Assembly: GCA_946529195.1 (NCBI GenBank)
Contig: CAMMZE010000006.1
Location: 1 to 16,094 of the forward strand
Direction: 5' to 3'
Length of the DNA: 16,094 bases
DNA from: an uncultured Lachnospiraceae bacterium
Lineage (GTDB): Bacteria; Bacillota_A; Clostridia; Lachnospirales; Lachnospiraceae
The position numbers were made by a program, and so were the translations under genes. The notes under the pieces were generated by a model. That model ran no database searches. It was given only the letters and a program-made list of their open reading frames with translations, and was not told the DNA's origin. Positions 1-14,545 of this stretch are shown piece after piece (positions within the stretch are counted from its first letter, which is position 1; every line of letters starts with the position of its first letter).

Positions 1-154
1 TGTTTATTTCTTTCCGAAGCGCCTGTCTGGCTTTCGCTCTCCACTCCCGCCAGTATTCACGACTCATGCTGCCGTGTTTGTGACCATTTTGTCCGGAGCG
101 AAGGTGCTTATTGTACTCTACCAGCATGCTGACGCCGGCATCGGGTTTCCGCAT
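1..154 (-). CDS. Unrecognised small basic protein, N-terminal part only
   Basis: An open frame starts at an ATG (152-154) behind a strong Shine-Dalgarno sequence (GGAGGAG) and stays open for 51 codons to the window edge, so the 3' end is missing. The product begins MRKPDAGVSMLVEYNK and is rich in Lys, Arg, His and Trp, with a hydrophilic helical stretch later on (REYWREWKARQALRKE). I do not recognise a family and see no membrane segment or signal peptide. It lies about 50 nt downstream of the terminator of the putative long non-coding RNA and has no obvious promoter of its own, so it may depend on read-through. A short inverted repeat (CCTTTT/AAAAGG, 166-179) overlaps the ribosome binding site and could mask it. 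The RBS supports a real gene; the function is unknown. Confidence 0.6.
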   Translation of the reverse strand, partial: MRKPDAGVSMLVEYNKHLRSGQNGHKHGSMSREYWREWRAKARQALRKEIN

Positions 155-202: not shown

Positions 203-232
203 AAAAAAGCAAGCCTGAGACATTTTGGCTTG
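203..232 (-). terminator. Intrinsic terminator of the long non-coding RNA
   Basis: On the minus strand GCAAGCC and GGCTTGC pair over 7 bp around an 11-nt loop and are followed directly by six T residues (203-208 on the plus strand are A). This is a canonical Rho-independent terminator pointing left, so it closes a transcript coming from the 1000 side. Confidence 0.8.
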
Positions 233-967
233 CAGGGGCAATATCTTCCCGCGTTGGAACGGGTCTGTCACACAGCCTGTTAAGCTGTAACTGCCACCGA
301 CACCGGTTCGTGGAATCCGGCAAATACTTACATTCAGGTTTCATAGAGTTCCTTTGGACACATTCTGCTTTGCGGGCTTCAGAGACTGCCGTCTCTTAGA
401 GTTGCATCTACTTGTACTATCTCACAGCTTGCCTTGCGGGCTCACCGCGGCTGCATATCACAGCAGCATAAGTCGGTTTTCACCTGAGCGTCGCGCACGC
501 TTTTGCTTCTTCCAAACCTTAACGACGGTCCCAGGATATTCTATGGGTCCTGGCTCCCGGCACTTATGGGTTACGAGGTGCGCGTCTGAACATCCGTACC
601 TTTTGAGCACGGCCCATTCATCGCAACCCTGTCTGTCTTGCGGACATCAACTTCGCAGCTTTGCCCACCCTTTCGGGCTCCGAGCAGAATGCTTTGATCT
701 GATGAGCACTTTCTCCTGCAAAGATCACACCCACCAGCAGCCAGCCGTCCACGCGTTTCCGCGGTTAGGGTTTTAGGACCCGTCTCAGGATCCCCGTCCT
801 TCCACGCCTTACACCGATTGGCTCTACGGCCTGAGGAAGGAAGTCGGCTGTACTGATTTTCCGATGCACTGTTTTTGCAAACAGTCGCCGTCCGGCCAAA
901 AGACGGCTTTATCCGTGTCGCCACGTTTATCTTAAGGACCCGAAATCGGCCCTGTAAATAACTTACA
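205..967 (-). ncRNA. Putative long structured non-coding RNA, about 760 nt, family not identified
   Basis: This stretch is bounded on the minus strand by a sigma-A promoter and an intrinsic terminator, and it holds no frame with a plausible ribosome binding site or recognisable protein. Compact stem-loops recur along it: ACTGTTT/AAACAGT (868-885), CGCG-GAAA-CGCG (752-763), CCC-GAAA-GGG (668-677), CCAGGA/TCCTGG (531-553), AGAGAC-GGCA-GTCTCT (381-396), ACAGC/GCTGT (272-288) and CCCG/CGGG (248-263). GAAA tetraloops and purine-rich joining segments (AAGGAA, GAAAAC) are typical of folded RNAs with tertiary contacts. The size is in the range of the large ornate bacterial RNAs (ROOL, GOLLD, OLE classes), but I cannot match it to any of them by eye. 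RNase P, tmRNA, 6S and SRP hallmarks are absent. I am fairly sure that it is transcribed and structured; what it does is unknown. Confidence 0.65.
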
Positions 968-972
968 AGGTC

Positions 973-1000
973 ATTATACAGGGCCGGTTTTCATATATCA
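973..1000 (-). promoter_or_regulatory. Sigma-A promoter of the long non-coding RNA, with overlapping inverted repeat
   Basis: On the minus strand a perfect -10 box TATAAT (973-978) is preceded at 17 bp by GTGATA (996-1001), which matches TTGACA at four of six positions. Transcription would start near 966-967. A 10-bp inverted repeat, CGGCCCTGTA and TACAGGGCCG (947-956 and 977-986 on the plus strand), is centred almost exactly on the expected start and covers the edge of the -10 box. It could therefore be an operator, or could help a paired 5' end to form. Confidence 0.6.
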
Positions 1001-1032
1001 CGGGAAAAAAGTTGCGAACTCATTACAGGAAA

Positions 1033-2971: not shown

Positions 2972-3012
2972 TTTCAAAAAAAAGGTGACAGAGAACCGTC
3001 CCCTGTCACCTT
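2972..3012 (-). terminator. Terminator formed by copy 2 of the dispersed palindromic repeat
   Basis: AAGGTGACAG (2982-2991) and CTGTCACCTT (3003-3012) pair over 10 bp around AGAACCGTCCC. Read on the minus strand the hairpin is followed by a run of T residues (A at about 2976-2983), so it terminates the polyferredoxin operon. The stop codon of that gene (3006-3008) lies inside the stem. It is the best conserved of three copies of this palindrome in the window. Confidence 0.75.
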
Positions 3013-3851
3013 CTGATGCGGAAGGATATTGCTTTTTCCGGACACTTGTCCATACATGCCCCGCAGCGGATGCATTCCGCCGAATCGGGGAATTTACGCG
3101 GATCTACCTGCATGCCGCAGGTGCCGGCACAGGCGCCGCAGTTGGTGCAGGCGTCTCCGTCGACCCGGATCCGGACCAGGCTGATTTTCTGCATGAGACC
3201 GTAAAATGCTCCGAGCGGGCAGAGATATTTGCAAAAAGGTCTGTAAATTACTGTGCAGGAGACCAGGCACAGGATCAGAATCAGCATTTTCCAGCGAAAG
3301 AGCCAGCCCAGAGCCGGCCGCAGGGTGCTGTTTAAGAGTACCAGGGGCACTCCGCCTTCTAAGGTTCCGACCGGACACAGATACTGACAGAAGAAGGGCA
3401 GGCCTCCTCCGGACCCGTCTCTGTAAAAAAGCGGAAGTCCGATGACCAGCACACAAAGTACCACATACTTCAGATATCGGAGAATGCGGTCGGCCTTTTC
3501 CGGTACCTGCAGTTTCGGAACCGGTATCTTGTGTAACAGTTCCTGTAAGAGTCCGAACAGGCAGAGCCAGCCGCAGATAAAACGTCCCGCTATGACGCCG
3601 GCTGCAATCAGATAGCCCAGTACATAGAAGGGGAATTTTCTTTGCCGTGCGTTCAGCGCAGCCTGCAGGGCTCCGATCGGGCAGGCACCAAGCGCTCCCG
3701 GGCAGGAGTAGCAGTTCATGCCCGGCAGGCAGAAATGTTTGAGCGGGCCTTCGTAGATCATGGGATTTCCAGGCAGGAAACCTTTGAGATAGCCGTTGGC
3801 TGCAATACCGGAGATGATCTGAACCACTTTTCTCAAATGCCCAAAAGTCAT
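3006..3851 (-). CDS. Membrane-bound 4Fe-4S polyferredoxin (NapH/YccM-like)
   Basis: This 281-residue protein should pass electrons between a membrane site and soluble carriers. It has several hydrophobic segments (about 75-90, 125-142, 165-175, 183-203) with cysteine motifs at their edges: C41/C47/C50/C57, C93/C97, C155/C159-P and C207/C211-P. The C-terminal ferredoxin domain has two complete clusters, C235-X2-C238-X2-C241-X3-C245 and C260-X2-C263-X2-C266-X3-C270-P. In the second membrane motif the usual CP is CL. The ATG at 3851 is chosen as start; a TTG at 3866 with GGAG about 10 nt upstream would add five residues. It follows the CXXC microprotein gene almost without gap, so the two are translationally coupled. 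The electron donor and acceptor are not shown by the sequence. Confidence 0.85.
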   Translation of the reverse strand: MTFGHLRKVVQIISGIAANGYLKGFLPGNPMIYEGPLKHFCLPGMNCYSCPGALGACPIGALQAALNARQRKFPFYVLGYLIAAGVIAGRFICGWLCLFGLLQELLHKIPVPKLQVPEKADRILRYLKYVVLCVLVIGLPLFYRDGSGGGLPFFCQYLCPVGTLEGGVPLVLLNSTLRPALGWLFRWKMLILILCLVSCTVIYRPFCKYLCPLGAFYGLMQKISLVRIRVDGDACTNCGACAGTCGMQVDPRKFPDSAECIRCGACMDKCPEKAISFRIRR

Positions 3852-14516: not shown

Positions 14517-14545
14517 GGGAGACAGAGAACCGTCCCCTGTCTCCC
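14517..14545. repeat. Copy 3 of the dispersed palindromic repeat
   Basis: GGGAGACAG (14517-14525) and CTGTCTCCC (14537-14545) form a 9-bp stem around AGAACCGTCCC. Core and loop are identical to the copy at 2982-3012, while the outer stem bases differ in a compensated way. It lies between the rplQ terminator and the ecfA start and has no T-run. Confidence 0.75.

Follow-up and report, generated by a model that had tools for sequence, protein, structure and literature searches.

The stretch of DNA analysed here (the window, 16,094 nucleotides from an uncultured Lachnospiraceae bacterium) carries at its left edge, on the minus strand, a gene for a large non-coding RNA of the GOLLD type, whose predicted transcript spans positions 203 to 967 (about 760 nt, its start being placed from the promoter). 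Upstream of it, that strand also carries a zf-HC2/DUF4825 (anti-sigma-like) gene and one for an ECF sigma factor. Past the terminator lies a small gene (positions 1 to 154, minus strand) with the Shine–Dalgarno sequence aaggagg and no known domain, of which 51 codons fall in the window; it encodes 56 residues in a related genome, G001, whose sequence (2.2 kb) supplies the farther left flank. Other genes above curated cut-offs are those for hydroxylamine reductase, ribosomal proteins S9, L13 and L17, truA, ECF transporter ATPases and rpoA, and no tRNA gene is present in the 16.1 kb. Comparison with PHROGs covered the small protein of G001 and 12 proteins of the window, and no gene for phage structure or integration was recognized among them. 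Matches were obtained for the sigma factor, the ABC ATPase, a ferredoxin, TruA and three others; terminase, helicase and transposition families also matched the ABC ATPase weakly at its ATP site. We read these matches as cellular families that are also present in phage collections, and the neighbouring genes examined look like those of a host.

The promoter of the RNA gene (1001 to 973, minus strand) combines a perfect -10 box, TATAAT at 978–973, with a -35-like GTGATA at 1001–996, 17 nt away, and its letters are identical in G001. Together the two boxes match the consensus at 10 of 12 positions, GTGATA at four of six; the -10 box and the spacing described in the earlier note hold, and the -35 box is weak. 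Three promoter-like sites occur on the two strands of positions 1–1500, against 0.8 ± 1.0 in shuffles, so that the promoter match by itself is weak evidence. A perfect inverted repeat, CGGCCCTGTA/TACAGGGCCG (947–986; 10-bp arms, 20-nt spacer), covers the -10 box together with the expected start site and is possibly an operator, to judge from its letters. This pattern, which was defined after the sequence had been viewed, has one exact match against none in 200 shuffles; G001 differs from it at one arm base, and its inner arm also holds the conserved 5' strand of the RNA. At the other end, the canonical terminator is plain from the sequence (233–203, minus strand): GCAAGCC-AAAATGTCTCA-GGCTTGC followed by T6, a 7-bp hairpin that is at the same time the last GOLLD hairpin (probably P27; its loop contains the conserved CUCA). 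It is absent from the scanner listing because its 11-nt loop exceeds the scanner maximum of 8. Two reading frames over the RNA segment, of 117 aa on the minus strand and 140 aa on the plus strand, are open in both the window and G001, and the folding energy of the segment gives z = -1.92, with one of 20 shuffles equally good. Single-sequence evidence is therefore suggestive, not decisive, and folding energy was rejected as proof of structure.

At gathering thresholds, an Rfam scan of the window yielded no match. A permissive scan of positions 1–1200 gave four matches at E ≤ 10, one of which was GOLLD (RF02032) on the minus strand at 629–212, with 94.8 bits and E = 3.2e-25, covering model positions 1–416 of 416, that is, the entire model; the other three had E values of 0.23 to 2.3, and the ROOL, OLE and HEARO models were not matched in this range at E ≤ 10. 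The earlier note, which had suggested the Rfam scan, could not place the RNA in ROOL, GOLLD, OLE or HEARO and left it as a member of either a known class or a new one; the first alternative is borne out, the class being GOLLD. The score is below the 150 bits required by the RF02032 gathering threshold, a curation cut-off and not a structural trait. All eight relatives described below likewise score under 150 bits (91–122 bits), which means that the Rfam cut-off excludes every one of the nine copies found and can hide GOLLDs. The GOLLD set of PMC12286853 was gathered at a cut-off of 1e-5; the window E value is far beyond this limit, so by that standard the RNA counts as GOLLD. Its 3' domain is also joined to a 5' domain of lower conservation. 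We regard it as almost certain that this minus-strand RNA of about 760 nt is a divergent yet genuine GOLLD, an ordinary identity in an unusual place.

Independent relatives, several of which score higher than the window, align with its RNA over the full length and share the 5' half too. Of the eight relatives, one is in G001 (contig CAMHFW010000040.1, a MAG of an uncultured member of the Clostridia); over 765 nt it is 98.8% identical to the window RNA. Nine differences separate the two RNAs, four of them on paired columns; three of these preserve the pair and the fourth falls at an already broken one. The low divergence continues from the RNA segment into the flanking coding sequence, and this similarity is therefore no separate proof of constraint. 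In G001 the small gene is followed by an oxidoreductase (BaiCD/OYE-like) gene lying in two frames (L005 48–2107), from either a frameshift or an assembly error. A second genomic copy, G174 (JAFQBM010000040.1, a Lachnospiraceae MAG from goat cecum, of the same family as G001), has a tRNA-Lys about 50 bases away and integrase, exonuclease, HNH and Ku-like matches in its surroundings. The remaining six are on IMG/VR contigs (L072, L076, L105, L106, L107 and L108; 92.9–121.6 bits). Seven of the eight relatives are in phage or phage-like DNA, the eighth being the G001 copy. A tRNA gene is found inside or within about 1.8 kb of seven of the nine copies (at 1.4 and 1.7 kb in L107 and L108, and at no more than about 50 bases in the other five), whereas the two chromosomal copies, those of the window and G001, have none in 16.1 and 13.1 kb, respectively.

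Inside the GOLLD linker, a tRNA is found in two of the nine copies, L072 and L076 (ARAGORN and Rfam). ARAGORN assigns both as tRNA-Leu(GAG), 73–74 nt long and lacking a long variable arm (L072 4579–4651, L076 4847–4920), and its predictions for the 10.8-kb stretch of L072 total 28 tRNAs. In L105 a weak tRNA match (3089–3164, 39.2 bits), not called by ARAGORN, ends just before the assumed GOLLD start; tRNA processing at this point might generate the 5' end of that RNA. L072 has its own promoter, TTGAAA-17-TATAAT, and a separate terminator beyond the last GOLLD hairpin. Read by eye, the last GOLLD hairpin is directly followed by T6 in the window and G001 and in none of the seven others; in L106 a five-T run starts four bases past the hairpin, and in L108 the stem itself is T-rich on its 3' side. 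Several features of the window copy were considered as its own peculiarities and discarded: a promoter of its own, which L072 also has; a linker without a called tRNA, which is true of seven of the nine copies; and a short linker, those of L107 and L108 being shorter (32 and 34 nt, against 61). A tRNA relic in the window linker was likewise discarded, as none is called there.

Copies are sparse in the genomes searched. Among 16 genomes, including six of the genus, GOLLD was found in one of these six, G001, which is also the one genus genome with the small gene; neither was detected in the other five. The family yielded two of 397 genomes, both with RF02032 and with model R1, and the class, with model R1, one of 391, G001 itself. 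Such searches score few candidates per genome, and the search of 16 genomes missed the G174 copy found by the family searches, so that these absences are not firm. A nucleotide search of 98 relatives returned G001 at full length and a chance-like match of 23 bases in G025, and blastn against phage and plasmid records returned no match. As for the motif patterns, the first drew 60 stretches from IMG/VR, none with the companion motifs at the expected places (judged on motifs and not by cmscan); two of five from the second were true by cmscan; the third drew none; all six from the fourth were true, two having been found previously, as were both of the two true ones from the fifth. A genome-contig pattern drew 28 stretches, two of them true (G001 and G174 again); 17 share a reverse-strand peptide motif read as RNA polymerase beta', and the remaining nine were assessed by eye and not by cmscan. 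Searches of open-licence literature brought up no title or abstract opening on a GOLLD in Lachnospiraceae, which is no proof of its absence from print.

The structure was examined on seven full-length sequences aligned by sequence alone. RNAalifold gives 169 pairs, 98 of which show at least one two-sided change; with pseudoknots included, the count is 102 of 171. The 5' domain (951–630, minus strand), a cap by homology with the cryo-EM structure of another GOLLD, contains the GAAA hairpin 763–752. In it, 439 of 487 pair cells are paired (90%) and 49 of 71 pairs show a two-sided change, whereas 500 shuffles give a mean of 347 and a maximum of 368 cells, and a mean of 28 and a maximum of 38 two-sided pairs. 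The 3' domain (629–212), which is the segment matched by RF02032, has 686 of 700 cells paired (98%) and two-sided changes in 53 of 100 pairs, against shuffle maxima of 581 and 45. The shuffles ignore the relatedness of the sequences; slid controls, which retain it, are lower throughout. Compensatory changes, which the earlier note had proposed to look for among homologues, are hence seen in both domains and, unlike folding energy, are decisive for a structured RNA, and its description of a large, ornate non-coding RNA bearing its own start and stop signals agrees with both the sequence and the covariation.

Within the 3' domain, covariation outlines a helix, 629–621/576–568, around the hairpin 619–588 with loop UCAAAAG (568–629; probably P13 and its inner stems); a variable linker of about 60 nt (61; 509–567), in which tRNA scans call none and whose length was compared in nine sequences; and a core domain (330–491), supported also by model R1 and closed by the helix 491–483/338–330, with the hairpin 467–450 and the arm 449–423 (loop CGCAA). 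A two-hairpin arm within the core (408–357), with loops CGGCAG and CGCAA, probably corresponds to L21a and L21b. There follow the hairpin 321–302 and the helix 295–290/242–237 bearing the hairpins 289–271 and 264–247 (237–321, covariation). The loops CGCAA, NNGCAN and CGCAA are conserved in all seven sequences. A scan for helices with six pairs formed in all seven sequences and no fewer than two two-sided changes returned 14 windows that overlap one another, among them two long-range proposed pseudoknots. The first, 584–578 with 498–492, has 49 of 49 cells paired and two-sided changes in four of seven pairs; slid by 2 columns it still has 45 of 49, and a competing nested helix has 46 of 56. 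The second joins 477–472 to 301–296, and at position 477 the window and G001 differ with pairing preserved (A-U to G-U). The two alone have 91 of 91 cells paired (shuffle maximum 86) but seven two-sided changes, no more than the shuffle maximum of 7. Since this consensus was drawn from the same alignment, a second structure was built with both chromosomal copies left out, on the basis of the five remaining sequences. Of its 186 pairs the window forms 152, against 61–81 of 181–184 after shifts of 1 to 5 columns; among the pairs kept, 53 depart at both positions from the pair most frequent in the others. The fit of the window is 82%, compared with 92–98% for the source sequences, a gap that arises partly by construction.

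GOLLD RNAs have been described from phages, prophages and tRNA arrays. These locations are typical of the class and not required by it, and the window, as far as its gene content goes, is none of them. Its RNA gene has a GC content of 0.529, close to the 0.519 of the remaining window, while the stretches around five relatives have 0.31–0.41. Host-like GC and largely kept pairing together suggest that selection is now acting in the host, although the composition could also stem, without long residence, from a phage donor that was itself richer in GC. In a sister genome, G005, the region beside the anti-sigma gene differs, and no empty site is demonstrable there. The strongest rival reading is that the RNA gene is what remains of a phage GOLLD in decay and, whether transcribed or not, has no function in the host. 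It would account for the occurrence in one of six genus genomes, within the limited sensitivity of that search, for the apparently frameshifted oxidoreductase gene downstream in G001, and for the 34 of 186 consensus pairs unmet in the window, compared with 4–14 of 183–191 in other relatives. Against it, the 53 pairs changed on both sides have nonetheless been retained, as have the pseudoknot pairs; the loops, promoter and terminator are intact in both chromosomal copies; and three of the four paired-site differences between these copies preserve the pair, the fourth lying where the pair was already broken. We consider such a relic unlikely. That the RNA represents a new large class with no relation to GOLLD, as the silence of Rfam at gathering thresholds might have implied, is very improbable in view of the full-model RF02032 match and of independent relatives, several of them better-scoring GOLLDs, that align from end to end. 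The chance that a protein-coding region has been mistaken for RNA is practically negligible: the two frames, open as they are in the window and G001, are lost among the relatives (the longest in the corresponding segment of five divergent ones is 58–106 aa), and variation follows the stems in both domains. The earlier note had seen no convincing open reading frame. Taken jointly, GOLLD identity, a chromosomal setting and a still foldable RNA are very probable.

Some features of the assembled state may be read from homology. In PMC12286853, the solved GOLLD, env-38, is a homo-14-mer cage in which the 5' part forms the cap and the 3' part the ring. The linker is disordered and lies inside, a GAAA loop faces the inner circle, and L21a has a self-complementary dinucleotide that makes an intermolecular contact (bridge B8). 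The window RNA shares with env-38 its two-domain 5'/3' build of about 800 nt, the variable linker, the whole 3' model, the 5' GAAA hairpin, the CGCAA loops and a self-complementary GC in an L21a-like loop; this GC is present in seven of seven sequences, in the loop that we take for L21a. As to the L20–J13/15 kissing contact (bridge B7), the CGCAA loop is present in all seven, but the proposed partner of the J strand 584–578 is instead 498–492. The window RNA differs from env-38 in lying on a host chromosome, without a nearby tRNA or recognized phage gene, and in that its last hairpin serves as terminator. ROOL, another large phage RNA that forms a cage, is described in the same paper as differing from GOLLD in sequence and secondary structure; the window RNA has no ROOL match. 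The mycobacterial GOLLD reported in PMC6582537 likewise resides in a bacterial genome, but within a cluster of 32 tRNAs; it contains a pseudo-tRNA, and a Northern blot in that study showed low expression.

In our preferred explanation, the RNA would derive from a phage GOLLD that was retained on a Lachnospiraceae chromosome, would be transcribed as a unit of about 760 nt and would fold into two domains, a 5' cap and a 3' ring, after which kissing loops would assemble it into a hollow homo-oligomeric cage (a 14-mer in one GOLLD structure) with the linker inside. Formation of such a cage by the window RNA is probable by homology. Our favoured guess at its use, a tentative and rather improbable one, is that parts of the translation machinery (ribosomal particles or tRNAs) are kept inside the cage while the cell is under stress or attacked by phage. 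The discussion of PMC12286853 brings up both tRNAs in linkers and the binding of ribosomes to GOLLD in pull-downs; for a Lactobacillus brevis prophage, PMC7567579 reports that phage production does not require GOLLD. It is conceivable, but quite unlikely, that the host has domesticated the nanocage, having taken a phage GOLLD and given it a compact transcription unit, with its own promoter under a dyad and its last hairpin turned into a terminator, and using the cage with the small protein encoded next to it. A domesticated cage might store translation components, or might co-assemble with, and so spoil, the cages of invading phages.

GOLLD and its linker tRNAs were already known; what is unusual here is the chromosomal setting, the host-like GC and the last hairpin doubling as terminator. 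PMC12286853 establishes the architecture, a 14-subunit RNA cage, and calls the function unknown. With a GOLLD copy that lies neither in a phage nor near a tRNA array, the RNA's own role becomes separable from the phage life cycle, and such a copy could be deleted in a host. The small protein is a possible partner of the RNA, to go by the position of its gene. Six relatives of it were found, and none in viral contigs or phage records; within the family, two of 299 genomes have one, in one case as a 43%-identical stretch in a 642-aa frame. Elsewhere in the window, the repeat GGGGACGGTTCTCTGTCA occurs in two copies on the minus strand (2986–3003 and 14520–14537), one of them mismatched, with 0.07 expected in shuffles.
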